In this document: piece after piece, positions 456 through 60,920 of the stretch
How the letters are laid out: every line of letters starts with the position of its first letter
Numbering within the stretch: the first letter of the stretch is position 1
Assembly (NCBI GenBank): GCA_963971425.1
Contig: OZ020521.1
Span: forward strand, 11,239,519 to 11,303,518
DNA length: 64,000 bases
Direction of reading: 5' to 3'
DNA from: Bryoerythrophyllum caledonicum
Taxonomy: Eukaryota > Streptophyta > Bryopsida > Pottiales > Pottiaceae
Position numbers and translations under genes: made by a program
The notes under the pieces: model-generated
What the model was told of the DNA's origin: nothing
Database searches by the model: none
Seen by the model: the letters and a program-made list of their open reading frames with translations, nothing else

Positions 456-3400
456 TTATTTGGAGACAACCTTTGTTCTCAAACCATTTCTAGCAACAGC
501 TAGGATCTCCGCGATTTCCCAAAGAAAACTCTCGCTACTCGACAGCGTTACGGACCTTGAATCTGAGGATTGTTCTTGTGGATGGTGGGCAAGGATGATA
601 TCTGAGTATATTTTGTTTTGGATCTTTTGGTAGTATTGTTTTAATTTTTCAGTGTTATGTGTGGAGGTATTGGCGTCGTGCCGTGGAAAAAGGTCTCTTT
701 GGGGGAGCCATTTATTGTATGTATTATCATTGTGTTGCCATTGGCATAGGTATTTTGTGTAGGTATTTTGTATGTTATTTGTGTCTGTGTGTTGGATATG
801 TTTATGGTTTATGATATTATTAATGGGGTATGTGGTAGGGTTTTTGGGGATGTATGTTGGGGGGCGGGGGTGGTATGAATGTGGAGGGTTAGGGGGATTG
901 GTTGGTGTGGGAATATTTCTTGGGATGATGTTATTGTTGAGGGTGATGAATGGATCTTTAAGTGTATGAGAATATGGGTGTATGTTGCAAGGAATATGAC
1001 ATATAGTGGGGCATGTTATGTGGCAAAATAGTTGTTTAGCAACACTTAGGGCACTCTTTATTAGTTTAGATGGGGTGAAGTGGTAGGTTTTGAAGTCCTC
1101 ATTGTTCATGATGTGTGTACCGTTAGGTAAGGTAATTTGGTTTAGTTCAAAAATATTTTTTGAGAGGAGTTTTTGTAGAAGCTTTTGGGAGAGTTGGGCA
1201 TTGAGTGTGTTATGATTTAATGTTTCTTGGCGCCATAGTATTTCTAGTGTTGTAGGATTAGTGAGGAAGTTCGGGAGCGTACTTTTAAGATGGGCTTTAG
1301 CTATATGTTTTAATAAGAAGAATGTTCGTGTTATTGGTGATCTTATGCAGTCACTTTTTTTAATTCTCGGTATGTTTTCAGCGCCACCATATTGGGCAAG
1401 GACATAGTGAGTTAATCCATTATATATTTTCCCAAGTCTTCCTTTATCGTTTAAAGCATTTTGCAGTTGTTCGCCTATACATCGGAGGTATGCGTTTTTG
1501 AGGGAGAAAGCTTCAAGTCCAAATAGGTTATGTGGTAGTTGGGTTATTGCATTTGACATACATTTTGGTAATCCACATATGGTTTTTTGTATGGCTATTA
1601 TTTTTTTATCAAGTTTTTTGATAGCTGGCATAGAGTATGGTACACCGTAGAAACTGTATGCCACACCTGGGCGTAGTACGGTATCAACCATTTTTATTTT
1701 TTGTTTCATGGTGGCTGGGCATGTTGTTAGTTCTTTGCATTTTTTGATGAGCTTTGTGGTTGTAGTGTGGATTTGGATTTTCCATTTTAGTGAGGGAACA
1801 AGATTTGTACCTAGGTATATGTATGGTTCGTTTTGGTGTAGTATAGGGATTGGTTGGTTGCGGTAGTTGGTGTTGGAGGTTTGCATTAGGGCTTTGAAAG
1901 TGGTAGGGTTCAATTTAGATTTGTTTGGGCATCCGGTAGCGGCACATTTTGGAACTCCCACATCCATGCCAGCCCATTTACAATATCTATCAATTTTATG
2001 GAGTTGTATTTGGATTGATTTGATTTTGTTAGTTATGGTGGCTAGGTCATCTGCGTATGCAGCGGAGTTTATTGTGACTTGTGATGTGCCGAAAGTATAT
2101 CCATTATTGCCTCTTTCTAGCCATCTAAGTAGTGGTTCTAAAAATATAATAAATAGGTATGGGCTGAGGGTGTCCCCTTGTATAGTTCCTCTTTGGATGG
2201 GTATAGGTTTTGTTTTTCCAAAGTGTTCGCCGATATAGCGAGTAGATGATTGGAAATAGATGTTTCCAACAAGTGTAGTTGCCTCTTTTGGGTAGCCAAG
2301 GTCTGATATTATTGCTAGAAGTCTGGCATGATCAATTGAGCCAAAGGCATTTTTGAAGTCCACGTATAGTATGTATATATCTTGGTTAGTAAATTTTGCG
2401 TCTTCTAATGCGGCTATTATAGTTTGTATTTGCCGTGCGGTACTTCTCTCCGCTCTAAATCCTTCTTGACTATCATGTAGGATTTTGAATTTTTCGCCGT
2501 ATGAGGATAGTATGTGGGTGAGTGTACTGGTAAAAAGCTTATATATTGTGTTAGCTAGTGCAATTGGTCTATGATTGGGTAGCATGGATGGATCGCCTTT
2601 TTTGTATAGTAGAATTGTTGCACTTGTTTTCCATGAATTTGGTATTTGTTTTTGTTTATAGCAGTGAGAAAAGAATAGGAATAGTAGTTTATGAAATCTT
2701 GGAGGCATGTTTTTGAGTATTGAGTTTGGTATGCGGTCTGGGCCTGGGGCTTTATTATTTCCAAGATTTTGAAGGCATGTGTCGTATGTGGCTCTGTTGA
2801 GGTATTTATGTAGTGGAATTTCTGGTTCGCCCCGTTTGTCAAGGGTATATCCGTCCAGGTCGTGCCAAGGGTATTGGCGTATTGCACATGTGCATTCTAT
2901 TGTATGTTGTGGCTGGTAATTACATGTTGGTACTGTTGGTCTATTGGTTTTTGTTTGTTGGTTAAATATTTCATTCGCAATGTCTTCGGGGCTAGTTATA
3001 ATATTATTATATTGATCTTTGATACAATCCATTGGTGGGGATTCAAGGTTTTTAAAGACTTTTTTGTTAATTTTTTTGGGGCTGATTTCGTATAGTTGTC
3101 TGTATTTTGAGATGGCTTTTTTAATGTTTTCTTTTGTGTATTTTGTGATTATTTTCCGGGCTTGTATGTTGGCATTTTTTGCAATTATCGCGATATCTTT
3201 TATCCATGTATCGTGGGGAAGGTCCGGAGGCGGCGGGGTAGGGATTTGGATGTGTTGTATAGTTAGTAGTTCGTTGAGTATGGGGTGGTTGTGCCATTGA
3301 GGGTTGTTTTTTACAATTCTAATGGTTTTACGTATGGTATGGTATGTGGTTAACTGTTGTTTCCAAGTTTTAGAAAGTTTGCGGGGTAGATACCCGCCTT

Positions 3401-4440
3401 GTTGAGAGGTTCTGTTTGTCATTTGGGGTATTGGATGTGCTCTACAAGTTTGTTCTAGTGTATCAGAGATTTTATTGATGAGTTTGTCTAGAGAGTGGCA
3501 TGCTTCTTGCCATTGTGCTTGTGTTAATTGACTATTGATTTCAAGAGTGTTTATGAGGGAGTCTATTTGTACGGTGTTTTCTTCGAAGAATTTTGTGTTG
3601 AATTTTTCTATGTTGGTTATTGGGATGGGGTTGAGTATGCGTATAGTGTCTTTGTTTGGGATTGTGGGAGTTCTACTAATTAGTGTGTTATTTGGGATGT
3701 GCAGTTGTACGGGTGAGTGGTCCGAATTGAGAATAATATCTTTGTTTGTTGTGGAGGTGTATTGTGTGTTGTTGTTTGTATTTATATAGAAACCATCTAT
3801 TAGACTCCAATCACTATAATTATAGCCACCTTGTCTAGAGAATTGTGTATCGGTATTGATGTAAGTGAAGTTTAAGTTTTCTGTGAAGCGGCGCCATAGG
3901 TAATCAATGTTTTGAGGGGGGGTGTGATGGTTTCCATTTTGGCGGCCAATTAGCGCTATGTCTCTATTGAAGTCTCCACATAATAGGTATGTATGATTGG
4001 GATGATTATTAATATGGGTTGTAATAGTATTTTGTATATCTAAGAGAAATCTAGTATCTTCGGGATGGGATGGCATATACATGTGAAAGATTAACCACGA
4101 TTGTAGTGGGTGATTAGTGATTTTAATTATTTGAATGTATGGTGATATGTGCATTGGGGTAGGGATTTTGTTGATGTTGCCAGGGAATGTATATTTTTGT
4201 GTATTAATGTAAGGAGGCCACCGCGGCCCGGTGTGTATGGTCTCCTTTGTTGCATGCATCTTGTAAGTGCATGTGTATTGTTAAAGATGAGTTTATAGTC
4301 TTGAAATATATTTTGTATATATTTTGAAGATTTTGTGGCGGTTAGTTTTGTTTCTTGTATAACTATAAGAGCCGGTGGTGTGTCTGTGTTTGCGACTAGA
4401 GTTTGTAAGCTAGGAAGGGCAATGTTTAGTTAGGAGGCAT
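456..4440 (-). pseudogene. LINE ORF2: APE endonuclease and reverse transcriptase (broken)
   Basis: The long open part (4259-456, 1267 codons) carries the C-terminal half of an apurinic-type endonuclease: GDFNRD at residues 95-100 and SDH at 179-181. The reverse transcriptase follows at about residues 500-820, with APGPDRIPN near 504, GFRAERST near 600, YVDFKNAFGSIDH near 632, RGTIQGDTLSP near 690 and the catalytic YADD at 735-738. A chromodomain-like stretch lies near residues 1169-1204. The endonuclease N-terminus is in other frames upstream: it begins IITWNAS at about 4450, meets an in-frame TAA at about 4431, and needs a frameshift between about 4190 and 4260 to join the main frame. The reaction would be target-primed reverse transcription in the nucleus. 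The last 30 or so codons are not shared with copy 2. Confidence 0.93.
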
Positions 4441-5650
4441 TCCATGTGATTATGTATGTATTTTCTTGGTTTGGTCTAATGTTTTGATTTTGATTTTGAG
4501 GAGGGATATAGGGAAGAGGTGGGGGTGGGTGGGTGTATTCTGGTATAGGGTCTAGACATTTTAGTGATTCACTTATGAGATTGTTAGGGAGGTAAGGGAA
4601 TTTTTGTTTTATTATATCATTTGAGGGTGGTATGTCTTGACTATGTAAGAAGTCGTATAGTCTTTTATGTATTGAGTTCTCATGGTTTATGATATGTTGG
4701 TTGTCTACTAGGAATTCAGTATAGGGGTGTGGAGTGTAAATGTGTCGTTCTGGTGGGTTTTGTAAGGTTAGTAAGGTTTGTAGGAGTGTATTAGTCCATG
4801 TAATTGTGTTCCAATTTTGTGGATTTAGAAGTTGGTTACATTCATCTATGTTTGGATGAGTAGTGATTGTTAGTGCATATAAGATGTGGGGTGGTGGATG
4901 CGTATTTTTTTGTTGTATGTATTGGGCAATGTTGGGGTGGGAAGTGTTGTGTATGTGGTGTAATGTATGTGTGTTTTTTAGAAATGGTGCGAAGGGTTTT
5001 GCAATGTGTTCATATTCTGGTTGGAGTTTTATGGTATTAGGTATAAAGTAGATTTTGGCATTTTTCTTATGTGATGTAGGATGTCTTTTTAGTATATTGG
5101 GCATGGGTCCCGGGTTGGTTTCAATGTCTCCTCCTAGAAGTAGTAGAAGTTTGTGGTATATATGTTTGGTGGTGTATTTTAAAGGCTTTGTTGTGTTATT
5201 AATGACTTGTTGATTTGGGGGTAGGTGGATGTTTGTATTTTGTGTGTGAGTTGTGGGTTTATTTATTTTTATAGTAGGTGTAGTTGTTTTCGTCTTTAGT
5301 TTATTATTATTTTTTTTCCATGTGTTTTTTGTGGTTGTTTTTGTTTTAGTAGTGTATGGATGTATATATGATTGGTTGTACTTTATCTTGGTTGTTTTTG
5401 TCCGTGTGCATATGTAACTATTATGTTTAAGACTATTTGTATGTGGGTTTATGTTGGTTTTTAAAGTGGCTTTTAAGTTCTTTTTTTCATATGCGGTGTT
5501 ATTATATACTTTGTGGTTTGTACAATTGTTTGTTTTGGTGTTTGTATTAGTATTTGGTATGAAATATGTTTTGTCATTCTTTTTGCGCGAAGCGGGGTGT
5601 CTTTTTAATATGTTCGGCATGGGTCTTTGATTAGTCACCATGTCTCCTCC
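4430..5650 (-). CDS. LINE segment with 2A-like peptide upstream of APE domain
   Basis: A 403-codon frame (start shown at 5641) rich in Asn, Thr and Lys. Residues 171-179 read GDIETNPGP, preceded by a Leu-rich stretch (HKLLLLLG); this fits the D-I/V-E-x-N-P-G-P consensus at which ribosomes skip a peptide bond. The frame ends in IITWNAS, the typical first strand of an APE endonuclease, followed at once by TAA. 2A-like peptides ahead of the APE domain are known in some animal and trypanosome LINEs, where they separate an N-terminal product from the endonuclease-RT. The segment at the 5' end (5650-5560) is a second, degenerate copy of the 2A module. It contains no other domain that I recognise. 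Confidence 0.75.
   Translation of the reverse strand, partial: GGDMVTNQRPMPNILKRHPASRKKNDKTYFIPNTNTNTKTNNCTNHKVYNNTAYEKKNLKATLKTNINPHTNSLKHNSYICTRTKTTKIKYNQSYIHPYTTKTKTTTKNTWKKNNNKLKTKTTTPTIKINKPTTHTQNTNIHLPPNQQVINNTTKPLKYTTKHIYHKLLLLLGGDIETNPGPMPNILKRHPTSHKKNAKIYFIPNTIKLQPEYEHIAKPFAPFLKNTHTLHHIHNTSHPNIAQYIQQKNTHPPPHILYALTITTHPNIDECNQLLNPQNWNTITWTNTLLQTLLTLQNPPERHIYTPHPYTEFLVDNQHIINHENSIHKRLYDFLHSQDIPPSNDIIKQKFPYLPNNLISESLKCLDPIPEYTHPPPPLPYIPPQNQNQNIRPNQENTYIITWNAS
5105..5131 (-). other. 2A-like translational recoding site (GDIETNPGP)
   Basis: The codons read G-D-I-E-T-N-P-G-P, with the Leu-rich lead-in expected to sit in the ribosome exit tunnel. By analogy to described 2A peptides the bond between the final Gly and Pro would be skipped, releasing the upstream polypeptide and continuing translation into the endonuclease. 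Activity here is inferred from the motif only. Confidence 0.7.
5621..5650 (-). other. Degenerate duplicate of the 2A module
   Basis: The codons read GGDMVTNQRP, followed by PMPNILKRHP. The intact site 519 bp downstream reads GGDIETNPGP followed by MPNILKRHP, and both are preceded by a YxKLLxLxG-type lead-in. The NPGP core is lost here (NQRP), so this copy should be inactive as a 2A peptide. Confidence 0.6.
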
Positions 5651-5734
5651 AATTAATATTAGAAGTTTGTAGTAGATGGGTTTTTTGTTTTGTTTTAGAA
5701 TTTTTTGTTTTTGAATGTGACTTTGGTGTTTTTT

Positions 5735-10393: not shown

Positions 10394-10419
10394 TGCTTTG
10401 TCTACTGTGAGGTAATGGG

Positions 10420-11860: not shown

Positions 11861-12525
11861 TTCCTGCGGCGTTGTCTTTCAAATCTAGTGCATAGGATCC
11901 TTAAACAAATGATGTTAGCTTTGTTTTGTAGAGTATGTATATTCCTATGAGGCCATGATGAAAATGTGGAAGTAATAATACCTAATAAATGAAAGAACAG
12001 AAAGGTGTGAAGAAGGTTAGAGATAGCCTGTGAGTGTTGACGCAGAATTTGCCTCCAAGGAATGGTTGAGTGCTTGTGTCCTAGTATCGCTGTTGGCTCC
12101 TTGTGTAGCTCAATCTCTTGGTATGATTGGGTCGTGGATCAGGGAGGTTCGAGGACTAGGTGGTGGGCGCAGATCTCAATCTTACTACACTCAGTCTGGT
12201 CAGATCTAGAGATGTGGAGGTCAATGGGTCCTGATCTGTGCAACAACACTAGTTTCCCATGCTTCAGATTCAAACTTTGCAAAGATCACTCTCACAGACT
12301 TATCCAATACCTCTAAACTTCCAGATCTGGTGTTCTGAGCTCTTCCAACAAGTGATCTGCCTCCCCAGCCCCACCAATGTCTAGATCTCGAACAATGTGG
12401 GCTCACAGTAAGGCCAGCAACCTCTTACTGCACATCCCTCAAGATTCTAGACTAAGTCCTTGTGCCTCCCCTCACCACGAATTGCGGAGCTCACTCTCTA
12501 CTCATCTCCGCCTCTCTTTGGACAT
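11861..12525. other. Intergenic, nothing recognised
   Basis: Short frames only, none with codon bias or recognisable motifs. Several agatct sites and CT-rich stretches are present. Confidence 0.4.
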
Positions 12526-17177: not shown

Positions 17178-17745
17178 GATCATCTCATCCCTTATTGATG
17201 ACATCACTGTCCGCGGATGGAAAGTGGACCCCCTTATTGTAATCACAGCCGGCGCCCGTGCCACCACCTTTATCCCATCTATAAAAATCCTAGAAGATAC
17301 CTTCAAAATTCCTATTGATACTATTACAAACACTTTCAAGAATAATATTAACATCATTGTCATACAACATGCTATGTCAATCCTTCTACATAAACGCAAA
17401 ATTGAAAACAACCAAGCCCGTCTAGATACACAAGACCCCCCATAAAATTACCCCTTACTCCATTTCTAAGAAACCCTGACACTGCAAAACACACCCTCTT
17501 CTCCCTTTTTCCCTCCCCTCTCTCTCCTCCCCCCCTCTCTCCTCTCTTCTCCCCCCTCCCTCCTTCCTTGCTATTCTATTGATTGGTTGGTTTTATGGCT
17601 TTCGGTTACTTGTTACATAGTGTCTACCCTCGAGAGGGGGAAGTAGTTCCAGCTTACTAATTCCTTGTCCGGTGGGCATGGTCTTAGTAGTGGAACAAAC
17701 AGACACTTTATTCACGCCGGCTTCTTCGGAGACCGCGTTCTTCTT
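17178..17745 (+). mobile_element. LINE 3' fragment (copy 5, plus strand)
   Basis: From about 17178 the plus strand encodes the C-terminal end of the LINE polyprotein (WKVDPLIVITAGARATTFIP, AMSILLHKRKIENNQ), as in copies 2 and 3, and runs on through the shared 3' tail (cttgttacatagtgtctaccct, ggtgggcatggtcttagt, acactttattca). It ends in a hairpin (cgccggcttcttcggagac) followed by TTC repeats at about 17735-17750. It is strongly 5'-truncated, as usual for LINEs. A one-base shift breaks the end of the frame. Confidence 0.85.
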
Positions 17746-28257: not shown

Positions 28258-28970
28258 TTATGGTGTGTCATGTGGATTGGGTAGGGTATGATTATTCTCT
28301 ATTTTTTGTTTATGTAATAGTATGGACATAGCATGTTGGATTGCGATGGTGTTTATATTATTAAAGGTATGTTTGATTGTATTCATGGGTATTTTGAAAG
28401 TTTCTTCAATGGTGTTCATGGGTGGGATATAGGTTGTGGCGTGGGCACCAGCCATGATGACTATGAGGGGGTCGATTTTCCATCCTAGATTTTTTATGTC
28501 GTCGATGAGGGGCTGATATTTGTTTATTTTGTTTTCTATTGTTTCTCGTGAAAATCTGTCATTACAGTATGTGAATTCATTAAATTGAATGGTATAGTTT
28601 GAGTCAATGTGGGTTGGTGCCGGGTCGTTGTATGGTAGACCTTTAACGTAAAGTATGTCGGGTTTAAATCTAGCATTGCAGTGACATCGTTGGGTTGCAC
28701 ATGTACATGGGAGTAGCCAAGGTGGGACCGTATTTTCTTGTGGGTTGTTATTGAAAGTGCCGGCATTCATGAGTATGAATCATCTAGATTTATTATGTGA
28801 GGTAATTAGTTTTCGGATTTCCCATACTGCTTTGTTATGTCTTTTAACAATGAGGGAGTGTATGTGGTGGTTTTGGCATTTTAGTAGGACATGTAGCCAT
28901 GTGTCGGGGTCTGTAGAAGTACAAATGGGGCATGTTATGGATGGGAAGCGTTCTATTCCGAAGAAGAGTT
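28258..28970 (-). pseudogene. LINE copy 2 C-terminus: zinc motif and terminal domain
   Basis: The motif CPICTSTDPDTWLHVLLKC, followed by HHIHSLIVKRH, is the Cys/His cluster often found after RNase H in LINE polyproteins. A second Cys/His cluster (CTCATQRCHC) lies about 80 residues further, then a conserved domain ending AMSILLHKQKIENN that is shared by copies 3, 4 and 5. A frame break between 28780 and 28770 separates the pieces. Function of the last domain is unknown. Confidence 0.75.
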
Positions 28971-29279
28971 GTTTACGGGCATTCCCCATATATTGACGAG
29001 TGCGGAATTTGATAAGGCATGTAATTTGTGAATCTGTAATGGAGGAATTTTTCCAGAAATTTGTAGACAATTCATTGTCTATGTTATTGTTGCCGGTCCA
29101 TATTTCTATGTTAGGGAAATTTTCTGAGATCGTGTCAATGTCGTTGTATGTGTCTTGTTTTTTCAGATGTTTTCCTAAAAATCGGACCGGTCCTTTGTCC
29201 GGGGTGTCGTCTTTGGAGCGCCAATCCTCTTTTTGGAAATAGTATGGGGTGGCATGTGCATGCTCATGTGGATCTTTGG

Positions 29280-29720
29280 CATTTTTATGTGATTTTTCTC
29301 TTCCTTCTTTGACTAGTTTGTCGGCTTGTTCGTTTCCATCTATATTAGAGTGGGCTCTGATTTTATGGAGTGTAGTAGGTTGTGTTCGATTTTGGAGCAT
29401 TTGTACCATGGACATGAGTGTTACTTTGTCGGGGTGGTTATTGTGGAGAGTGGGGTGTGTTATTTGTGTGTTTAGTAGATATAGGACATTGATGCAATCC
29501 GTAAAAATGTGTGCGGGTTCGTTGGCATATTTGTGTTGATGATTTGGAGTGTTTTGTGTATGGCCATCATCTCTGCTCTGCTCTGAGGATGTTTTGAAGT
29601 CCATGGAGTCTTTTGGCTAATTTGATTTCTTTGTTGGGATTGTATATGCCATATCCGGCTTTTTCTCTCTGTCAGTGACCAGGGCTACTTTCTACTCGTT
29701 CTTTGAAGGATCCATCTGTG
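29280..29720 (-). pseudogene. RNase H domain of LINE copy 2
   Basis: The frame shows the first acidic position in a DGSFK motif near 29.71 kb, a TDCINVLYLL strand and helix near 29.5 kb and the closing RAHSNIDGNEQADKL motif (His and Asp) near 29.33 kb. These correspond to the D-E-D-H-D set of type I RNase H. A TGA follows the first motif (near 29.67 kb). RNase H would remove the RNA template during second-strand synthesis. Confidence 0.8.
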
Positions 29721-30099
29721 TAGTAACTATGTATGGGGTCATATTTTGGGTGTGTATGTGTGGTAATTAGGGAGAGGGGGATTTGTCACGGAGTAGTTTA
29801 GTGTGTTGTTATTGTATTCTAGTTTAGACCATTTTTTGCTACGGTTTACTGGAGTTTGGGGGGGCGTGGTCGAGGCAATGTTGGTGAATATCTGGTTTAT
29901 GTTCATATTTTTTACAATGGATGTGAGTGTGGTGAGTTGTTATGGGGTTCCCATTGTTTTATTTTGGTGATGGACACATAGTATTTGTAGTGTAGCTCGT
30001 TCAAGCCTAGGTTTATTTTGTTCGGGTGGGATAGTGGGTTCTTCGTATGCTATTGAGTCCGCTTCGAATAGTGCAATGATGTGTGTGTCAGGGAAGGGG

Positions 30100-30740
30100 C
30101 CTGAGTGTGGGTTAGGATTTTAATACCAATTTTTGTCGGGGGTTATGATTAGGGTGGAGGTGTGGTTTGGGTCATGTTTGGCTGCGAGGCGGGCTTAATG
30201 TAGTGTTTGTTGTATTTCCTCTTCATTGTGGGGGTTGGCTATACCATTACCTATATATTTGTGGTCAAAGGCTTTACCTTGTGATCCGAATATTTTATCC
30301 CTTTAAAAGGGGAGTAAAATTTGTTGAGTTTGGTGGGGCATGTGACGAGGGAGGAGAAGTATGAGTGTTGGATGTTGAATGTGGAGATTAATGAGTTTAG
30401 TGTAGGTATGGGTAGTGTATATTGTGTAAGTTTAAGGGGCTTATTTTTTGGTATTCTATATTTGTATCTTTGGTATAGCCATATGACTTCGGTTTCAAAT
30501 GGTTGGGTTGTTGGTTCAATGTTTGTAGGGGTTTGTAGTTTAGTATTGTATTGATTCCATAACCATGTGAGCCTAGTGATTGGGATGGTGAAGAGGTGTC
30601 GTCCATCTTCTTTGTATAAGTGTGCTTGGTCTTTGTCAATTTTAATTGTGTTAGATGAGGTGAGAATGTCGTTTTCGGGGTAACATTCCGTTGTGTAAAT
30701 GTTTAGTAGGGGGATTATTGTGGTTGGGGTGACGGACCTT
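30100..30740 (-). pseudogene. PCIF1-like N6-adenosine methyltransferase domain of LINE copy 2
   Basis: Reading across one frameshift near 30300, the minus strand gives, in order, TRLTWLWNQYN, VIWLYQRYKY, a stretch with YFSSLVTC, KIFGSQGKAFDHKYIGNGIANP, an in-frame TAA at 30197-30195, ARLAAKHDPNHTS and TLIITPDKNW. Known PCIF1-family enzymes have the same succession: W-L-x-x-R-Y, an F-x-S-P-x-x-C block, FGS-x-G-x-x-x-D, an NPPF catalytic motif and a hydrophobic strand ending in P-x-W. Here the NPPF position reads NPHN, so only the Asn-Pro is kept. PCIF1 methylates cap-adjacent adenosine in mRNA; whether this domain acts on nucleic acid is unknown. The copy itself is broken. Confidence 0.6.
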
Positions 30741-31990
30741 GTGTCCTAGAGTTGATTTTGTGGGTGGTGAGCTTGGATAATTTTGGTGTAGAATTTGTGT
30801 TGAATTCTTTGATAATATTGTGTCAATTTATTTGTATTATGTGTAATGGTGTTTTGGTTGTGTCTTGGGAAGAGGTTTCTTTGGGGAAGCCATTTGTTGT
30901 AGGTGAGGTTATTGTGAGTCCATTCGCATAGATATCTAGTGTGATTGTTTTCGATTTGGTTTTTATCTATTTTTTCATTGTATTTGTGGTGTATGATGTT
31001 GTTAATGGGATATGTGGTGGGGTTTTTGAGGATGTGGTTTGGGGGATGGGGGTGGTGTGGGTGGAAGTGGGGAGGGTGTATCGATTGTGGAGGGGTATTT
31101 CTTGGGATGATGTTGTTGTTTATAGTGATGAATGGGTCTCTAAGTGTATGGGAGTATATATGTGTGTTGGTATGGGTATTGGGTGGAGGGGGGTATATTG
31201 GGTGGCAAAAGAGTTGTCTTGCGATTTTGAGGGCATTTTTAATTAGTTTTGATGGGGTGAAGTGGTAGGTTTTAAATTCTTCATTGTTCATGATGTGTGT
31301 TCCGTTAGATAGGAAGATTAGTTTTAGTTCGTAGATATTTTTTTTATAGGAGTTTTTATAACAACTTTTGAGATAATTGTGTGTTGAGTGTATAATGGCT
31401 TTGTATTTCAAGAGTCCAAACTTTTTCTAGTGTTGTTGGTTCTATATGAAAGTTGGAGAGAGTACTTTTTAGGTGGACTTTTGCTATGTGTTTTAGTAAG
31501 AAGAAGGTACGTGTTATTGGTGATCTTGTGCAATTTGTCTTTTAAATTCTAGGTATGTTTTCGGCCCCCCCATATTGGGCGAGGATGTGATGTGTTAGGC
31601 CCCTGTATATTTTCCCAAGTCTGCCACTGTCATTTAGAGCGTTCTGTAGTTGTTCTCCTATGCATCTAAGGTATGCGTTTTTTAGCGAGAAGGCTTCTCA
31701 TCCAAATAGGTTGTGTGGTAGTTGGGTTATTATATTAGACATACATTTTGGCATGCCGCATACGGTTTTTTGTGTGGCAGTTATTTTTTGGTCTAGTTTT
31801 TTGACAACGGGCATTGAGTATGGTACTGCATAGAAGCTGTATGCCACGCCCGGTCTTAAAACTGTGTCGATCATTTTTATTTTTTGTTTCATAGTGGCCG
31901 GACAAGCTACTAGTTCTTTGCATTGTTTGATTAATTTTTTGGTGGTGGCATGGATTTGGGTTTACCATTTTAGGGAGGGGACGAGACTTA

Positions 31991-37510: not shown

Positions 37511-38021
37511 AATTCGACACTCATGGAAGAAGAAGCAAGAACTTGATCTGCAGGAAATTTTTTAAAAGTCTAGGTTTTTAAAAAAACATTAATGCAGAAA
37601 GATTTGAGAACTCACCAACACTACTTTGGTAACTGAAGATTTCTGCAGAGTATTGCAAAGCCAAAGAGAAACACCTCTTTGGTGATGCAAGCTGTATCAG
37701 AGGATTTGTAACGGAATTGCAAATTTCTGGGGGGGAAGAATATTTTAAGTAAGTTCTTCTTCTCCAGTGGTTTGGTTTCTTGTCCGGGGGGTTGAGGTCG
37801 GACAAGAAACTAATCCAGAGGAGAAGACCTCTTCAAAAAAGTGTTGCCACATAGGCATCCATGTCATTTTTTCATCCATGCTTGAAGTTCTCCACCGGTC
37901 AAGTCTTGGCCGTAGTGTAAACCCAATCCGGTGAAGAACAATTTTTTCTCCAATCATATTGCTCCATTTCCCTTGAATTCTTGACCGGTGGAGTTCTCCA
38001 CCATAGTGTAAAGCGGCCCTT

Positions 38022-39345
38022 ATTCCTAAATATATGTATGGTTCGTTTTGGTGTAGTATGGGTATTGGTTGGTTTCGGTAATTAATGTTAGAGGTTTGTA
38101 TTAGGGCTTTGAATGCGGTGGGGTTTGTTTTTGATTTATTTGGGCATCCAGTGACGGCACATTTTGGGACACCTACATCCATACCTGTCCATTTGCAGTA
38201 CCTATCTATATTTTTAAGTTGTATTTTTATGGCGTTGATTTTGTTGGTTATGGCCGCAAGGTCGTCCGCGTATGCCGTGGAGTTAATGGTGGTTTGTGAT
38301 GTCCCAAATGTGTATCCATTGTTGCCTCTATCTAGCCATCTAAGTAGTGGTTCTAGGAATATAATGAATAAATATGGGCTTAGGGTATCTCCTTATATTG
38401 TTCCCCTTTGGATGGCTATGGGTTTAGTTTTACCAAAGTGTTCTCCTATATAGTAGGTTGAGGATTCGGAGTATATATTTCCCACTAGTGCGGTGGCGTC
38501 TTTGGGGTATCCGAGGTCCGTCATTATGGCTAAAAGTCTAGCATGGTCAATGGAGCCAAAGGCATTTTTAAAGTCAACATACAGTATAAATATGTCTTGG
38601 TTTGTAAATCGTGCATCTTCTAATGCGGATATTATTGTTTGGATTTGTCTAGCGGTGCTTCTTTCTGCGCGGAACCCCTCTTGGCTATCGTGCAGTATTT
38701 TATGTTTTTCGCCATATGATGATAGTATTGATGTGAATGTGCTCGTAAATAGTTTATAGATGGTATTGGCTAATGCAATGGGTCTATGGTTCGGTAGTAT
38801 GGATGGGTCTCCTTTTTTGTATAGTAGGATTGTTGCACTTGTTTTCTATGAAGTAGGGATTTGTTTTTTATTTTAGTAGTGGGGGGAGAAGAGGTTTAGT
38901 AGTTTGTGGAACCTTGGGGGCATATTTTTTAGTATAGAGTTCGGTATGCGATCCGGTCCGGGGGCGTTATTATTTCCTAGATTACGTAGGCAAGTGTCAT
39001 ATGTAGCTTGATTAAAGTATGTGTGTAGTGGGGTTTCCGGGTCTCTTCTTGTTTCTAATGTGAATCCATCTAGGTCATGCCATGGATATTGTCGTACTGC
39101 AGATGTGCATGTAGTGCGGTGGTCCGGTTGATAGTTGCATGTGTTTACCGTAGGTGTGCTGTTTTTTGTTTGTTGGCTAAATATTTCGTTTGCAATGTCT
39201 TCTGGGCTAGTTAGTATATTGTTATATTGGTCGGTGATGCAGTCTAATGGCGGGGACTCCATAGTTCTGAATACTCTTCTGTTTATTTTCTTGGGGCTAG
39301 TTTCATATAGTTGTATATATTTGAATGCAAGGATGAGTTTAGAAT
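38022..39345 (-). pseudogene. LINE copy 2, reverse transcriptase N-terminal part
   Basis: Minus-strand matches to copy 1 in order: PPLDCITDQYNN, APGPDRIPNSILK, LYKKGDPSILPNHR, GFRAERSTARQ, YVDFKNAFGSIDH, YADDLAAIT, MDVGVPKCAVTGCPNKSK and QNEPYIYLG, where the Harbinger element interrupts it. At least three stop codons are present (near 38870, 38835 and 38395). Copy 2 is 5'-truncated at about 39345, where similarity to copy 1 ends within the linker before the RT. Confidence 0.92.
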
Positions 39346-39808
39346 AAATTCATAGTATCCAGTTGTTTGTGACAACATCCAAAAGTAGCATTTATTTGCA
39401 AGCACTTCTGCTCCTCAAGATGACTCTTTCCTAGCTTCTGCCAACAAGATGCCCTCGTAATATTTGCAATATCTAGCCCCAAAAATGCTCTAGAAATGCC
39501 CAAATTGTGCGGATATGTATATGCCTTGAAGGCCATGCAACAACTTGTTTTGAACCATCATGTAATCACCATCTTGTGTGTGTCAATGGTGGACACTTGT
39601 TACACATGAGAAGGTATATAGGGCCTATAGTTCACCACCATGGAGCTATGAAAAAGCGAGTAAGACTGAGCATGAGTAATTTAATGAGGTATGGAATTGA
39701 TAACCTTACATCCAACAAGCTTGAATATAAGCTATCGTGCCCCCCTCCAAAAAAATCGGTAATCCTACAAGAGTTATCCTGAAGGTTATCCAGAAGGTAA
39801 GTCAATCT
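39346..39808. other. Intergenic, nothing recognised
   Basis: Flank of the truncated LINE copy 2. Only short frames without motifs. Confidence 0.35.
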
Positions 39809-44105: not shown

Positions 44106-45524
44106 CTATTCAGTGGATTCAACCTTTGAGCCCATGCTCTTGGAGTGCTGGTGATGCAGGGAGATGGCGTGGAGGTATCCTTTGGCGGTGGAGTAGGAGA
44201 CGTCGTATTTTTCGCAGAGGCGCGCCACGATGGGCTGCAGCTGCGGGAGATGGCAGTGGTTGACGGTGGGGAAGAGATGGTGGACGACCTGGTAGTTGAG
44301 CCCGCCGCTGAAGAGGTGGCAGAATTTGCTGCCCACTCCGAAGTCCTGCGCCGTGACGACCTGGTGCCTGTACCAGTCGGCGTCCGCGGCGTGGGTGGTG
44401 TGCGGGAGGAGGTGGTTGATCTGCGTGTTCATCATGAAGAGGAAGGAGAAGAGGAGGTACGGCACGAGCGCGAACGCGAAGCGCTTGGACCAGGAGTCGA
44501 GGAGCAGGAACGGCCACGCGTGGATGACGACGATGGTGAGCGTGCGGCCCACGACGTGCAGCGCGCGGCGCGGCCCGCTGATGGCCATCATGGGCACCAC
44601 CTCGTTGTACAGGTTGCTCTGCAGCATCCAGATGTCTTCCATGGTGGTCAGCCCGAACTCCACCGCCACGCTCCACCAGAAGAGCATGTACCACCAGGTG
44701 CTCTGCTTCTTGTGCTCCGGAAGCCACCTCACGTCCTTGTGCTCCCGCTTCATCCAGTAGTGGTGCAGCACGTCCGGGTCGCGCTCGCTCACATTCGGGT
44801 AGCTGTGGTGGCCGATGTTGTGCTGGTGGTACCACACGAACGGGGACGAGAAGTAGGGATACAGATACGGGACGAGCGCGTTCACCCTCCAGCGCGCGCT
44901 CAGCGCGAAATGCGTCGCGTCGTGAAACGTATTAACCCCCAACAGCCACGCCGCGAGCGGGAACAGCACGAGAAACCTCCAGTCGCCCCGGAAAAACCCA
45001 GAAAATGTGGCCACATGAAGCACCGCCAGCACGGCGATCTCCATCAATCTCCCCGGAGTCGCCTTGGTGGCCTCCCGGAGCGAGACGCCCCGCCGCTTGG
45101 CCTCCCCCTGAAAGTACTCCTTCACCTGGAACTTGACCGCCTCGCCGAACGCGCTCGGCCATTCAAACTCGTGCTCCGCCACGCCGTGCCGCTGCTCCAA
45201 CGTCTGCAATCCCTTACTGTCCGTCGCGTCAATCTCATACTTGGCCAAAATCGCGTCCAGCACCTTGCGGCTCGTAAACGGATGGTGACTCTCGAACATC
45301 ACCGTCGCGTCCCGCCCGCGCGCCAGCCCCAGCGCCACCGGCCCGCCCGGATGGTGCCGCTCGAATTCCGTCAAATCATACCACTTCCCATGAATCTTGG
45401 TCAGCAACTCCGTCGGCTTGGACGCTGTAAACAACCGCAAAGGCTGCCACTCCAAGTTCGGCCTGCCCACCACCCCCGGCTTCACATGATCCCCCTCCGC
45501 CCCCATCCCAAAAACCCAAGACAC
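44106..45524 (-). CDS. Cytochrome-b5 front-end fatty-acid desaturase
   Basis: An intact 472-codon intronless frame with strong GC3 bias. The N-terminal cytochrome b5 domain has HPGG at 58-61 and the second haem His at 80/81 (ESHHPF). The desaturase domain has three histidine boxes: HDATH 201-205, HNIGHH 235-240 and QVVHH 412-416. The Gln in the third box marks front-end desaturases (delta-5, -6, -8). These are ER membrane enzymes that take electrons from the fused b5 and insert a double bond between an existing one and the carboxyl end of an acyl chain; hydrophobic segments near 163-198 and 325-350 fit this. Length fits bryophyte and algal enzymes. Delta-5 specificity is my guess; delta-6, delta-8 or a sphingolipid base are alternatives. 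Start chosen as the first ATG giving a complete b5 domain. Confidence 0.93.
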   Translation of the reverse strand: MSWVFGMGAEGDHVKPGVVGRPNLEWQPLRLFTASKPTELLTKIHGKWYDLTEFERHHPGGPVALGLARGRDATVMFESHHPFTSRKVLDAILAKYEIDATDSKGLQTLEQRHGVAEHEFEWPSAFGEAVKFQVKEYFQGEAKRRGVSLREATKATPGRLMEIAVLAVLHVATFSGFFRGDWRFLVLFPLAAWLLGVNTFHDATHFALSARWRVNALVPYLYPYFSSPFVWYHQHNIGHHSYPNVSERDPDVLHHYWMKREHKDVRWLPEHKKQSTWWYMLFWWSVAVEFGLTTMEDIWMLQSNLYNEVVPMMAISGPRRALHVVGRTLTIVVIHAWPFLLLDSWSKRFAFALVPYLLFSFLFMMNTQINHLLPHTTHAADADWYRHQVVTAQDFGVGSKFCHLFSGGLNYQVVHHLFPTVNHCHLPQLQPIVARLCEKYDVSYSTAKGYLHAISLHHQHSKSMGSKVESTE

Positions 45525-45990
45525 CCAAACCCAAACACTCTCAAAGCATCAGAGCTCCTGACCAGAACCCACCCACACACCCATCCAAAATCGTCCCGCA
45601 ACGAAAAGAGAAGACGAAGTGCAGATACAACGCAACCGATCCTGGTCGTCCTCCTGTTCTGCTCCCGATCAGAGGGGCGTTGCGTCGCAGGAGCGCGGAG
45701 GCTTCTGTCGCAATGGCCAGTTGGGAGCACATGTGAAGGGGATGGAAGTTTGCACACTAGGCAGCAGGCGATGAATCTCCTCCGGGATGACTGTCGATGG
45801 GAGTCATCGAAGGACCACGACGACGAGTCGGCTGCCACTACTTGCGCTGGAGCGTCACCACTTGTGAGCAACGGCAGTGGGCCTCCTTGCGGCGCCTATA
45901 ACCGTTTCGGTTTCCACGTCTGTGGCTTGGCCAGCGATCATCGCACTGGATCCAGTTTCCAGGAAATGTCTAAAACCCTAAACCCTAAAC
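45525..45990 (-). promoter_or_regulatory. Upstream region of the desaturase with CCCTAAA telo-box
   Basis: The GC-rich sequence 45.6-45.95 kb lies directly upstream of the ATG and probably contains the 5' untranslated region and core promoter. At 45972-45990 is aaaccctaaaccctaaaccc, about 450 bp upstream. Telo-box motifs of this kind occur in many plant promoters. No TATA box could be assigned. Confidence 0.4.
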
Positions 45991-46722: not shown

Positions 46723-48555
46723 CATTTTTTTGTGTTGAGTCCACACCTCCCCGTCCCCTAGCCCTTTCCCTCCAATCCATTGTCCCCCGTCCCCCGTCCC
46801 CGTCCGCGTCCCCGTCCTTTTTGAAAATGTAATTGTAGAATCTTCTAATTCTTTATGAGATGGATGTCTCCGGGAACTTCGTCTCTTTCAATCGCTTAGG
46901 GTTATCAAGTCCAGAGCTCTTTCTTATGTCAATATCCTCTCCCATTCGTACTTCTCTCGCTCGCTTCTCCTCCATCCGATGCGCTTCCCATGCCCGTTCC
47001 CTCGCTCCTCTCTCGCTTCCGCTGAAACCCCGTCCCAAGAGCTTTCCAGCGAGCCTATTATAGCAGCCTCTCGTGGAGCCTGCCGCACGGGAGTCGAGGA
47101 GCAAGCTCTCGGTGAGTTCACGAATAGGCCTCTAGAGAACTGTAAGAGAACACTTTGCCGTTAGGGGAGCAAACCCTAACTTTTAGCTTTTCATCCAAAA
47201 GCTCCTTTTTCATCGGCGCGTTCATCCATTGGCGCATTCATCCAAAAGGATTGTTTGTCATCCTGTATTCTTTTCCAGATATAGATAGTAGATATTTAAA
47301 AAATCTATTATTATTTATATTATTTTTGTGTAATCTATTTCACATTTATTTCAATTTTTATTTTCTTCTACATTTGGATATTATATTATTTTTATTTTTA
47401 TTTTTATTTTTGAAATAGAATGATAGAAAAATTATCTTAGATTAGGTTCTTTTCTTGAATTGAATAGAATGAGTACAATCGGAAGTTGTAGCTCCCTGAG
47501 AATTTATTTTCTGGAATTTTTTGAATTTCTTTTTAACATTTCTAGATTGTCTGGAGACATGCCTATTTCTTTGTTTTTTATACACATTAGGCTCTTCTAT
47601 TTGTGTACATTAACTCAATCAATAATTATTTATACTTATTCTTTATGGAGGCACAGGACACCATTGCTAGAAAGAGAAAATTACTGATAAGATGGTATTT
47701 GAAGATCGATGAGCACGCCAACTAGCGACAATTTGCATACCTCATTGTATAGCTCACTCTAAGGTAGGACAACCCAAAACCAACTGGCAATCTAGTACCG
47801 CTCCCTTTTGTGCACTTCCTAGATTTTAGGAGAAAATGTAGCCGGTCATCACATCACTTATAAATTCATTGGTAAGTGCATAAGTCATGTAAAGACGGGC
47901 TACATTTCCTCCCTAGAATCTAGAAAGGGAATAGAAGGTAATATTTATATAATATTTAGCTCACAAAAATTATAACATGAATTGGCAATATTTGAACTCC
48001 ACTCCTTGCACAATTGTTTTGAATGTGTTACACCTCCTTTTTACCTCTAAAGATTGGTGCACAAATAAGTGATATCATTCTTAACTTGATAGTAATGCAT
48101 TAGAACCTTGTATAGTGCAATTTGACACCGAGTGAATTTAAAGTCGGTTGATCCACTCAGTGTAGGGAAGAAAATGAACCGTTTTCTCTACTCCAAACAC
48201 TACAATATTTCAATTTGTGTCGTCAAAGTTTATGAAATGTTTTGATTATGAACTTAATAAGTCTTAACTGAGAACCTACTATAAAAGTTAGAAATAACAG
48301 TTTTTTGTTCTCCTTCCTACTCATTGCACTAGAATTAGTAGTTTTGAAGTGTTTTTGGTGTGAAATTGTAAGAGAAATTTAGGGGTCAAATATAGAACCA
48401 GAGAGTACTTACACAAACTTTTTTTTGGAATAACACTAATTGAACAAGTGTAACTTTTTAAACTCCAAAATTTTACTATAGGTGAAAAATAGTTTGTGGA
48501 TTTCTACTTAGTATTAGCCACATTTAGGCCTCTATTAGCACTTTGTGTTGGTTTT
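46723..48555. other. Intergenic, no supported gene
   Basis: Contains a C-rich run of gtccccgtcc repeats (46760-46815) and an AT-rich simple stretch near 47290-47440. Short frames at 46.85-47.16 kb are not supported. Confidence 0.35.
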
Positions 48556-48559
48556 CGTA

Positions 48560-49495
48560 TTATAGTGTTGCCATCCATAACATGCCCAATATGCACCTCC
48601 ACGGACCCGGACACATGGTTACACGTACTCCTCAAATGCCAAAACCATCATATACATTCCCTAATTGTCAAAAGGCATAATAAAGCGGAATGGGAAATCC
48701 GCAAACTAATAATATCCTCCAATAAATCACAATGCTTTATACTTATGAAGGCCGGAACCTTCAACAACAAACCACAAGAAAACACAGTCCTTCATGGCTA
48801 CTCTTGTGTACATGTGGAACATACAAATGTCACTGTAATGTCAAACTTAAACCAGACATACTATGTGTCAAAGGACTACCATATAAAGACCCTCCACCAT
48901 ACCACATGAATACAAACCTTACTATCCAATTCATTAAATTCAAATATTGTAATGATAGATTTTCCCCAGAATCAATCAAAAACAAAATTAATAAATATCA
49001 ACCACTTTTTAATGACATTGCAACTCTTGGATGGAAAGTTGTTCCCCTTATTGTCATGACCGCTAAAGCAAGAGCCACTACCTTTATTCCCTCCATGAAA
49101 AATCTTGAAAAAACATTCAATATCCCAATTAATCCAATTAAAAAGACATTCTCAAAAATTAACACGAGTGCTACTAAACATGCGATGTCCATACTCCTAC
49201 ACAAACAAAAAATTGAAAATAATCAACTCCTTCCAGGATTAAATGATACCTCTAAAACCTTGCAAAAACACATTTTTAACCTATACATATCATTTCTTCA
49301 AATTGAGCGATGTGGCTCTAATGGGTCCTTCATCCTTGGACACTGGTTACTGGTACTCGTTACGGGTCACATAGTGTCTATCCTTGAGAGAGGGGAGTAG
49401 TTCCATACTGCTAAACCTTTGCCCGGTGAACATTGGTTTAGTGGTGGTACAAACATAAACTTTATTCACCCCAGCCCCTCCTTTGGGTACCGGAG
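48560..49495 (+). mobile_element. LINE 3' fragment (copy 4, plus strand)
   Basis: Encodes ITCPICTSTDPDTWLHVLLK (zinc motif) near 48570, the AEWEIRKLI helix, and after one frameshift near 48730 the C-terminal domain (KARATTFIPSMKNLEK, HAMSILLHKQKIENN). It then continues through the shared 3' tail to about 49495. A premature 5' end truncates it before the RNase H. The 3' hairpin is degraded. Confidence 0.88.
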
Positions 49496-57462: not shown

Positions 57463-58159
57463 AGATTATGATTTTAGTAATATTATTATAAATAATATTA
57501 AAAAAACACTTGGCCATAACAACAATCAGTGTGGCTTTTTGGCTCTACTACCTTACCCCAAGGGTTGGATTTGGCACAAAAATTCTAAAAATAGATACTT
57601 AAATTATTTGAAATTAATTATTTTATTTATTTTTACTTGGTGGAAAAAGAAATTCTTGAGAGGATTTGTTCTGGTGGGGTACTATAGTTTGATGGAGTAG
57701 GGTACGCACAATAGAGCATTATCCCTCTAAGTTTGGCAGAAAACCACACATGTTCGCAAGACATCCCTCTCCCAGTTCCTGCACCTCGGATGACCCTCCA
57801 TTTATCCCTATCCATTTCCTTGGAGGGCAACAAGAGGGTCATTCCTTCATGGCCCAAATTAGGGGATGGACAAAGAAATCTCATGCACTTTCTTCAAAAA
57901 TTAAATAAAAAAAAGTAAGTGCACATTGCGTCTTAGAAAATGTTATTGTGGCAATATCACAATGGGACCACATAATCCCTTAATCATCTACTTAGATATA
58001 GTTCACTTTATGTCCACATGTGGATTGGTCTATTTTAGTTTCTAACGACATCAATAGTGCTACGATAGAACAATCCAAAACCACACACATACCTAAAACC
58101 ACCAACTTTTATTCTCTTCTTACATATAGGTCACAATTGTAAAGTCATTCAAAGAAAGA
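57463..58159. other. Intergenic, nothing recognised
   Basis: Short frames only; no motif. Confidence 0.35.
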
Positions 58160-58460
58160 AGAAGAAGAAGAACGTCGGTCTCCAAAGGAGGCCGACGAGA
58201 ATAAAGTGTCTGTTCGTTCCATTACTAAGACCATGCCCACCAGACAGGGAGTTAGCAAGCTGGAACTACTTCCTCCTTTCGAGGGTAGACACTATGTAAC
58301 AAGTAGCCAGGGACCTCAGAACCTATCAACCACAAAGTATCAATGAGGGAAGCATGCGGGGGAGGGGAGAGGGGAGAGAGAGAAAATATGAAGGGGAGGA
58401 AAGAAGGGGAGGAGGGCGCATATTGTGATTTCATGGATGAACTAAGGTAAAGAGGAAGTT

Positions 58461-59381
58461 TTATGGGGGGTCTTGTAGGTCGGGAAGGGCTTGATTGTTT
58501 TCAATTTTGCGTTTGTGTAAAAGGATGGACATAGCATGTTGTATGGCAATGACATTAATATTCTTGAAAGTGTTGGTAATTGTATTAATAGGGATTTTGA
58601 AGGTATCTTCTAGGGTTTTTATAGATGGGGTAAAGGTGGTGGCGCGAGCGCCGGCAGTGATTACTATAAGGGGGTCCACTCTCCATCCTAGGGCAATGAT
58701 GTCATCAATAAGGGGTTGGTATTTAGTTATTTTGTTGTCGATTGTTTCAGGGGAAAATCTGTCATTATAGCATGTAAATTTGATGAATTGAATCGTGTAG
58801 TCTAGGTTTATGTGGTCGGGTGGGGGGTCATTGAATGGTAGGCCTCTAACACGGAGTATGTCCGGTTTGAGTCGAGCATTGCAATGGCATCTTTGAGTTT
58901 CACATGTACATGGGAGTAGCCATGGTGGGACCGTATTTTCTTGTGGGTTGTTATTAAAGGTGCTGGCATTCATGAGGATAAAACATCTTGATTTGTTATG
59001 GGAGGTGATTAATTTACGGATTTCCCATACCGCTTTGTTATGTCTTTTGACAATTAGGGAGTGTATGTGGTGGTTTTGACATTTAAGAAGAACATGTAGC
59101 CATGTATCGGGATCCGTGGATGTGCATATTGGGCATGTTATGGATGGGAATCTTTCTATTCCAAAGAAGAGTTGTTTTTGGGCGTTTCCCATGTATTGTC
59201 TGGTACGGAATTTGATAAGGCATGTTATTTGTGAGTCGGTGATGGTGGGGTTTTTCCAGAAATCTGTAGAGAGTTCATTGTTTATGTTGTTGTTGTTAGT
59301 CCACTTTTCTATGTTAGCGAAGTTATCTGAGATTATGTCTAGGTTGTTATATAGGTCTTGTTTTTTAAGGTATTTGCTCAA
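58461..59381 (-). pseudogene. LINE copy 3 C-terminus with zinc motif
   Basis: A 306-codon open remnant. Holds FRTRQYMGNAQKQLFFGIERF, then the zinc motif CPICTSTDPDTWLHVLLKC, HHIHSLIVKRHNKAVWEIRKL, a second cluster CTCETQRCHC and the terminal domain (GWRVDPLIVITAGARATTF, HAMSILLHKRKIENNQ). Nearly identical to copy 2 (28258-29040). The Cys/His motif after RNase H is common in LINE polyproteins and probably binds the element RNA or target DNA; the last domain is unassigned. Confidence 0.8.
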
Positions 59382-59501
59382 GAATCTAATCGGGCCTTTG
59401 TCAGGGGTGTCTTCTTTGGAGGGCCAATCTTCATTTTGGAAGTAATATGGGGTGGCGTGAGCATGTTCGTGTGGGTTTTTGGCATTTTTGTGTGATTTTT
59501 C

Positions 59502-60080
59502 TCAGCCCTCTTTTGCTAGTTTATCCGCTTGTCCGTTACCATCAATGTCGGCGTGGGCTCGAACTTTGTGGATGGTTGTGGTTTGTCTTCGTTTTAGTAT
59601 CATTTGGACCATAGATTTTAGTATGATTTGGTCCAGGTGGCTATTGTGGAGGGTAGGGTGTGTTATTTGGGTGTTTAATAAATATAATGCGTTAATGCAG
59701 TCTGTGAATATGTGCGTTGGCTCATTGTTGTATTTTGTTGTGATAATTTCCAGTGTTTTGTGGATGGCCATGAGTTCAGCTCTAAGGATATTTTGTAGTC
59801 CATGCAGTCTTTTGGCTAATTTGATTTCTTTTGTAGTGTTGAATATTCCATAGCCGGCTTTTTCCCTACGCCAATTGCCTGGACTAATCTATTCTGGTGG
59901 TTTGAAGGAGCCATCGATATAGTAGCTATATGCGGGGTCAAATTTTGGTGTGGTGGTAGTTTGGTAGTCTGGGAGGGGTGGGGGTGAGAAGGTGTAATCT
60001 AGTGTGTTTTTGTTGTGATTTAGTTTTGACCATTTTTTGTTTCTGTTTATTGGTGTTGGTATAGGTGTTGGTGGGGCCAT
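59502..60080 (-). pseudogene. RNase H domain of LINE copy 3
   Basis: Catalytic landmarks of type I RNase H: YYIDGSFK near 59.91 kb, the E of the MAIHKTLEII helix near 59.77 kb (the upstream RAE is just outside the open piece), TDCINALYLL near 59.7 kb and RAHADIDGNGQADKLAKEG near 59.54 kb. A stop follows the first motif, so the protein is not continuous. Confidence 0.82.
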
Positions 60081-60229
60081 TTTTGTGTGTAGCCGGTTTA
60101 TGTTAAGAGTTTTTTCTATGGTGGTGAGTTCGTCAAGTTGTTCTAGGGTGCCAAGGGTCTGGTTTTGGTGGTGGATGCATATTACTTGTAATGTAGATGG
60201 TTCGATTCTAGGCTTTTTTAGCTCAGGTG

Positions 60230-60920
60230 GGTTAGTAGATTCTTCGTATGTAATTGTGTCTGCTTCAAAAATAACAATGATATGAGAGTCTGCAAATGGG
60301 CTTGATTGTGGATTAAAGTTTTGGTACCAATTTCTGTCTGGTGTGATGATGAGTGTAGATGTGTGTTGTGGGTCATTTTTGGCAGCAAGACGGGCCTAGT
60401 GTAGTGCTTGTTGTGTTTCCTCCTCATTGTGGGGGTGAGCTATACCCTTACCAACCCATTTATAGTCAAAGGCCTTTCCCAAGGAGCCAAATATTTTATC
60501 TCTTTCAAAGGGTGAGTAGAATTTTTTTAATTTGGTGGAGCATGTGACGGGGGAGGAGAAGTATGATTGTTCAATGTTAAAGGATGAAATTAATGAGTCT
60601 AGAATAGGTGTGGGTATTGTGTATTGTGCATTTTTGAGGAGGTTATTTTTTGGGATGCAATATTTATATCTTTGATATAGCCAAATTAATTTGGTTTCGA
60701 ATGGTTGGGTTGCTGGTTCGATGTTTGTAGGAGTTTGTAGTTTCAAATTGTATTGATTCCATAGCCATTGGAGTCTAGTAGTCGGAATAGTGTGAAAATG
60801 TTGGCCATTTGCTTCATATAGATGGGCTTGATTGTTCTCGATTTTAATTGTGTTTGAGATTGTAATAATATCTTTTTCGGGGTTACATTCCGTTGTATAG
60901 ATGTTTAGGAGTGGGAAGTC
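60230..60920 (-). pseudogene. PCIF1-like N6-adenosine methyltransferase domain of LINE copy 3
   Basis: The same domain as in copy 2, better preserved. In order: TRLQWLWNQYN, KLIWLYQRYKY, IPTPILDSLISSFNIEQSYFSSPVTC, KFYSPFERDKIFGSLGKAFDY, GKGIAHPHNEEE, an in-frame TAG, ARLAAKNDPQHTS, TLIITPDRNWY. The spacing and key residues follow the PCIF1 family (RY, F-S-P-x-x-C, FGS-G-x-x-D, catalytic NPPF, P-x-W). Here the NPPF position reads HPHN (copy 2: NPHN), so the catalytic Asn is lost. It lies between the chromodomain-like segment and RNase H of the LINE polyprotein. Unknown: target, activity, and whether the ancestral element had NPPF. Confidence 0.62.

Follow-up and report, generated by a model that had tools for sequence, protein, structure and literature searches.

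A PCIF1/CAPAM-type domain with an altered catalytic motif predicted in the large open reading frame of a moss LINE

Within 64,000 nucleotides of the genome of the moss Bryoerythrophyllum caledonicum (assembly GCA_963971425.1, contig OZ020521.1, positions 11,239,519 to 11,303,518), the whole stretch being hereafter called the window, lie copies of an element which, as judged from its sequence, is a non-LTR (long terminal repeat) retrotransposon, i.e., a long interspersed nuclear element (LINE), with an APE-type endonuclease, and whose large open reading frame (ORF) is predicted to have captured a Rossmann domain of the PCIF1/CAPAM type. Profile, sequence and fold comparisons argue that this domain belongs to the PCIF1 family by descent and sits inside the LINE polyprotein between the reverse transcriptase (RT) and RNase H. 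The catalytic motif NPPF has been lost in favour of a conserved HPH[N/T], and the domain is under purifying selection.

The PCIF1-type domain and its place in the LINE polyprotein

PCIF1/CAPAM is the cap-specific adenosine N6-methyltransferase (PF12237; PDB 6irv, 6irw, 6irx, 6iry, 6irz, and 6is0), with which the LINE domain shares the profile, the fold and the motifs FxSPxxC and DxxFGSxG. The Pfam entry is called PCIF1_WW, a misnomer according to the accessible part of one account, where the domain is a CAPAM-like methyltransferase rather than a WW domain (PMC7641849). The profile, whose cut-off is 31.1 bits, matches the 186-residue ORF of the window at 48 bits (E=1.4e-12) and the read-through frame at 49.5 bits, the window scores overall being 48-52.4 bits, and it matches all 12 family members tested. 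Searched by sequence against the PDB, the single window protein retrieves PCIF1 weakly (E 0.011 and 0.088, the next entry being an unrelated enzyme at 0.44), while a profile of the domain retrieves zebrafish PCIF1 at 5.8e-4 and human PCIF1 at 0.027, with no other entry at E<=10. Two predicted folds match the PCIF1 methyltransferase fold over about residues 411-668 of the human protein; the fold-match rows begin at human residue 411-417 or zebrafish residue 415-422, one untrimmed row begins at 221, and the modelled part excludes upstream LINE sequence. The original prediction of a PCIF1-family domain in a LINE polyprotein is thus borne out by the agreement of Pfam, the PDB sequence profile and both predicted folds, profile and structure comparisons of the segment between RT and RNase H having each returned PCIF1. 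Unlike PCIF1/CAPAM, the LINE domain mostly carries HPH[N/T] at the NPPF site, leaves the helical domain mostly unmatched, is embedded in a LINE and comes without a WW match, none being found at E<=1 in the parts scanned of the frame of one intact copy (L031:2749-4299, L031:4300-9900, and L032:3-2108).

In the window, the minus strand from 60956 to 58464 forms a single reading frame interrupted by just three stops, on the read-through of which Pfam places PF12237 at residues 74-227 and RNase H at residues 360-484. Every PCIF1 landmark earlier listed occurs on the minus strand within 60230-60920, namely WLYQRY, FSSPVTC, FGSLGKAFD, the motif at the NPPF position and PDRNW, with two amendments: the aligned NPPF site is present but reads HPHN, and of FGS-x-G-x-x-x-D the FGS.G part is kept but the final D is not conserved in the family. 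By family similarity this copy starts at about 60917 and lacks the RT and the chromo part, so the RT-PCIF1-RNase H architecture is visible only in other copies. As such, the proposed placement between an RT/chromodomain part and RNase H holds for the family but not for the copy on which it was based, and the chromodomain-like part itself gives a weak match (E 0.03-0.12; 12.8-14.7 bits, below the cut-off of 25.1).

Of 2620 candidates in a protein search with the domain region, 29 are relatives at E<=1e-3; PF12237 is found in 26 of them and is accompanied by RNase H on one chain in 13. Protein P0009 (1289 residues) begins at the end of RT and includes the PCIF1-type domain, RNase H and the C-terminus; P0032 (764 residues, with a Pfam RT) extends from RT to the start of the PCIF1-type domain. 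A further relative, P0054, is deposited as an 'RNase H family protein' of a Candidatus Nitrosocosmicus bin and is probably a plant contig mis-binned. In the 437-Mb assembly, the best 150 of 2614 candidates were scored, so that copy counts are lower bounds; all 150 exceed the PF12237 cut-off, and in at least 33 the match sits in a stop-free frame of one and the same length, 3087 codons. Among the 52 loci scanned for architecture (30 of them covering 3.4 kb only, and three places being present twice), six (L033, L035, L036, L037, L039 and L052) have an uninterrupted frame that spans the endonuclease (partial in L039), RT, the PCIF1-type domain, RNase H and the C-terminus. The C1 (L031 and L032) and C8 (L052) copies are identical over 5166 + 2251 = 7417 nucleotides, which gives the appearance of a recently active element. 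Pattern matches to the domain alignment numbered 27 in viral contigs and 48 in genome contigs, and none of them was confirmed.

The assignment to LINEs draws on several parts of the element. RT is matched by RVT_1 (E=3e-26 and 1.3e-22). The endonuclease profile PF03372 (cut-off 24.5 bits) scores 27.8 in L052 and 29.4 in L036, above the cut-off, and 23.3 in L033, just below it; PF14529 scores 19.4-25.5 bits, below its cut-off of 27.4, in L052, L036, L033 and the window copy, and one scan whose boundary cut through the endonuclease part gave no endonuclease match. Family 3' ends share a tail of about 140 nucleotides that runs into (TTC)n; where the flank of a copy is long enough, similarity ends there, as would be expected of a LINE. 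No integrase was matched in the polyprotein parts scanned.

A host PCIF1 gene adjoining a LINE copy, or recently fused to it, would be a very improbable source of the domain. No point in favour of it was found, and it is contradicted by the fusion in a single frame at many loci and in the public proteins P0009 and P0032, as well as by a search of the genome with a zebrafish PCIF1 fragment including NPPF, which gave only 26-38% identity and a best E of 0.0011 among the best 150 of 1175 candidates. Of the five loci fetched from that search, four are copies of the LINE family and one (L055) was left unclassed; the search revealed no close host PCIF1 gene among these best candidates, although a gene split into small exons could escape it. 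On the one-frame fusions and the zebrafish-fragment search, this source was rejected. That the match arose by chance in a low-complexity LINE linker is hardly credible and was likewise rejected: the polyprotein is rich in Asn, Thr and Pro and the single-sequence PDB search is weak on its own, but the PF12237 scores across the members tested, the PDB profile and the fold matches contradict it.

The catalytic motif and selection on the domain

The catalytic loop of PCIF1 is described as N553-C557, with the motif NPPF, and its APPA and SPPG double mutants serve as dead enzymes (PMC10544176, as far as its available text goes). Three of the four NPPF residues are changed in the LINE domain. Among 131 database proteins, the first three positions are H, P, and H in 128, 119, and 102, respectively; among 55 genomic rows, in 52, 55, and 53. 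The rows are not all independent: four of the genomic ones repeat a place already counted and one is the window copy, and without these the genomic counts become 47, 50, and 48 of 50. Neither NPP, DPP or SPP, nor F, Y or W at the fourth position, occurs in any of the 186 rows (131 database and 55 genomic). NPPF is absent from the 131 motif-covering proteins of all protein searches (P0001 being the window itself), although stand-alone NPPF-bearing PCIF1s may share too few words to be picked up by such searches; the search aimed at them covered the best 120 of 187 matches. At the codon level, the first and third positions alternate between CAC and CAT in 45 genomic copies, with two amino-acid changes at the first and one at the third, this set having been picked by a pattern demanding the middle P and the neighbours G[ILYF]A and [NTSD], with L057 mistakenly left out as a duplicate.

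The other motifs of the domain are retained. FSSPVTC, which we take to be the loop of PCIF1 on the side of S-adenosylmethionine (SAM), is conserved in family rows at F (79/79), S (79/79), S (78/78), P (76/78) and C (78/79); DKIFGSLG, presumably the second SAM-side motif, is conserved at D (81/81), F (80/81), G (81/81), S (81/81) and G (80/81). An additional C-x-H-H, positioned by eye near the last strands of the domain, is conserved at C in 137 of 143 rows, at the first H in 140 of 142 and at the second in 134 of 142.

In Drosophila, Pcif1 has the F of NPPF changed to H (PMC9479742) and is called catalytically dead (PMC9916840), in the portions of these two papers that are available. Taken with the loss of NPPF in the LINE and the dead APPA and SPPG mutants, this makes it unlikely that the retrotransposon marks its own RNA with N6,2'-O-dimethyladenosine (m6Am) in the canonical form, as had been envisaged, and speaks against reading the name adenosine methyltransferase as an activity. 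On the loss of NPPF, an enzyme that writes m6Am in the canonical way was discarded as a candidate.

For the domain, the median ratio of nonsynonymous to synonymous substitution rates (dN/dS) over 27 sequences is 0.168, far from neutral, after removal of L017, L019 and L029 as duplicates and of pairs with a dS outside 0.05-1. Listed relatives reach down to 40% identity with the window copy and the most distant genomic copies compared share 65-67% DNA identity, from which the capture looks old.

Possible uses of the domain

We consider it about an even bet (probability near 0.5) that the domain makes no m6Am and would instead be a nucleic-acid-binding module which keeps the grip of PCIF1 and serves the element's own messenger RNA (mRNA). 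Drosophila keeps a PCIF1 without the catalytic motif and the substrate of PCIF1 is the capped 5' end of mRNA, so that the simplest use to a LINE would be the holding of its own mRNA. The domain may retain its hold on a capped or 5'-terminal adenosine, and perhaps on SAM; it could then tether the element's mRNA, by the 5' end or by an adenosine, to the element's RT while the latter is at work, and as an outcome the own RNA might be preferred as template, full-length copies might be finished, or the RNA might be shielded. The likeness to Drosophila Pcif1 lies in a catalytic motif altered by His in a retained protein, the difference being that one residue is altered there, in a host gene, and three here, in a transposon.

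Several observations weigh against this proposal or the assignments beneath it. For the first model, Foldseek gives low TM-scores (by query length, 0.38-0.43). The motif departs from HPH in 40 of the 131 database and 5 of the 55 genomic rows, four database rows reading HPP and one genomic row DPH. The SAM-side motifs are near-invariant, for which there is no obvious call in a domain that only binds RNA. Constraint on the domain looks looser than on the core enzymes, its dN/dS being the highest among six parts and about twice that of RT (RT 0.074, endonuclease 0.108, thumb/chromo part 0.121, RNase H 0.088, C-terminus 0.077), in estimates limited to open frames covering each part. Lastly, the 7-methylguanosine site of PCIF1 is placed between the helical and methyltransferase domains (PMC9916840, available portion), and as the site is next to a helical domain that is mostly unmatched in the LINE, cap binding may have been lost.

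An alternative that we consider unlikely is that the domain is still a methyltransferase, in which HPH[N/T] in place of NPPF goes with a changed chemistry or substrate, be it the cap-adjacent base, internal RNA, complementary DNA (cDNA) or DNA. The near-invariance of FSSP..C and D..FGS.G, the near-constancy of the first H, the conserved C-x-H-H and the purifying selection on the domain would all suit such an enzyme. We know, however, of no amino-methyltransferase motif of the HPH[N/T] form, the third motif position is less steady among database proteins (H in 102 of 131), and the APPA and SPPG mutants of PCIF1 serve as inactive forms (PMC10544176, same portion). Slightly less likely still is that the domain does no more than space RT from RNase H or act as a scaffold on which the polyprotein folds: the loss of the catalytic motif and the rank of its dN/dS would be in keeping with this, but the sequence near the old active site ranks with the best-conserved stretches, and a spacer would not obviously retain it. 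We also think it unlikely that HPH[N/T] forms a catalytic centre of a kind not seen before, in an enzyme of cap-methyltransferase descent that would modify the element's own capped RNA or new cDNA and thereby aid the LINE in evading the host.

Captured DNA methylases are known in retrotransposons, namely Dam-type domains in DIRS elements and DNA methyltransferases (DNMTs) in Gypsy, DIRS and Symbiodinium LINE elements (PMC6338049; PMC5890265). SymbioLINE-Dnmt and the DIRS/Gypsy Dam/DNMT elements likewise hold a captured methyltransferase domain under purifying selection, with Ka/Ks < 0.2 there; all of these are DNA methylases of other families, and in SymbioLINE the domain mostly has an ORF of its own ahead of that for RT (PMC5890265 and PMC6338049, in the available portions of both), in contrast to the LINE described here, where the domain is of a cap-RNA methyltransferase family, lies between RT and RNase H and has lost the catalytic motif. 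In the eTudor-DCD proteins of choanoflagellates, a CAPAM-like domain is also found within a larger protein, but a cellular one and not a transposon (PMC7641849, available portion). The earlier suggestion that the architecture had not been described stands to the extent that no PCIF1-type domain in a retrotransposon, or cap-RNA methyltransferase family in a LINE large ORF, was found in the open-licence literature, an earlier mention elsewhere not being excluded. With its many intact, near-identical copies, the family allows a direct test of whether a transposon promotes its own RNA by recognising the cap or by modifying RNA, and it constitutes a natural set of proteins in which selection has maintained a replacement for the PCIF1 catalytic motif.

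Further features of the window

The features of the LINE family in the window are collected in Table 1.

Table 1. Positions of LINE-family features in the 64,000-nucleotide window
Feature	Position	Strand	Basis or remark
PCIF1/CAPAM-type domain (predicted)	60111..60887	minus	Structure-matched extent: read-through frame residues 24-282 vs human PCIF1 411-668
Stop-free ORF, 186 residues	60396..60956	minus	N-terminal and central part of the PCIF1-type domain; PF12237 E=1.4e-12
FSSPVTC (F-x-S-P-x-x-C of PCIF1)	60540..60560	minus	Alignment
DKIFGSLG (D..FGS.G of PCIF1)	60477..60500	minus	Alignment
HPHN, aligned with catalytic NPPF	60426..60437	minus	Alignment
In-frame stop TAG	60396..60398	minus	Translation
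In-frame stop TAG	59889..59891	minus	Translation
In-frame stop TGA	59502..59504	minus	Translation
RNase H domain	59505..59879	minus	Pfam, E=1.6e-12
Polyprotein C-terminal part with CPICxxxxxDTWLHVLLKC-H cluster	58461..59501	minus	Zinc knuckle-like by eye; no Pfam match in this part
Conserved 3' untranslated tail, hairpin-like end (by eye, not folded) and (TTC)n	58156..58309	minus	Common to the window copies at 28 kb, 49 kb and 17 kb and to loci L032 and L040
Second, decayed copy: chromo-like part, frameshifted PCIF1-type domain, RNase H, C-terminus, contiguous	28261..31426	minus	PF12237 on one frame E=0.01, 15.8 bits, below cut-off
Third copy: chromo-like part, RT (2594-1809), endonuclease (4094-3708), 2A/StopGo-like motif (5128-5105)	546..5734	minus	Pfam and similarity
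RT fragment of LINE family	37748..39349	minus	Pfam and similarity
3' fragment of LINE family, C-terminal part	48553..49247	plus	Similarity
3' fragment of LINE family, C-terminal end and 3' tail	17191..17442	plus	Similarity

The third copy ends just short of the PCIF1-type domain, and the point where it stops (about 546) and that where the domain copy starts (about 60917) are near-identical in the polyprotein, possibly as a recurrent breakpoint or by coincidence. Upstream of the endonuclease, a 2A/StopGo-like motif D-I-E-[T/Q]-N-P-G-P followed by MPN is present in 17 of 21 long loci (L031 and L033-L052) and in the window copy, where it reads GGDIETNPGP with decayed repeats upstream; in L031 it lies at 4966, and two such motifs stand in tandem in L033-L036 and L042. 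Odon is said to have described, in 2013, 2A sequences in APE-type LINEs. For plant viruses, one account, in the portion available, found no natural use of StopGo (PMC12846837).

A second repeat with long low-complexity frames adjoins the LINE both in the window (5738-12138, minus strand) and at L032:2439-6186 (minus strand; beside an intact copy on C1). Of its frames in the window, the two scanned, 5738-7585 and 9443-11065, match no Pfam entry. A scan of the window for transfer RNA genes found none. Elsewhere lie two features that would suit a land plant, perhaps a moss: a long transposase ORF on the plus strand (33591-35087), with the Pfam matches DDE_Tnp_4 and Plant_tran and presumably Harbinger-like, and a single ORF on the minus strand (44109-45548) that encodes a cytochrome b5-fatty acid desaturase fusion.
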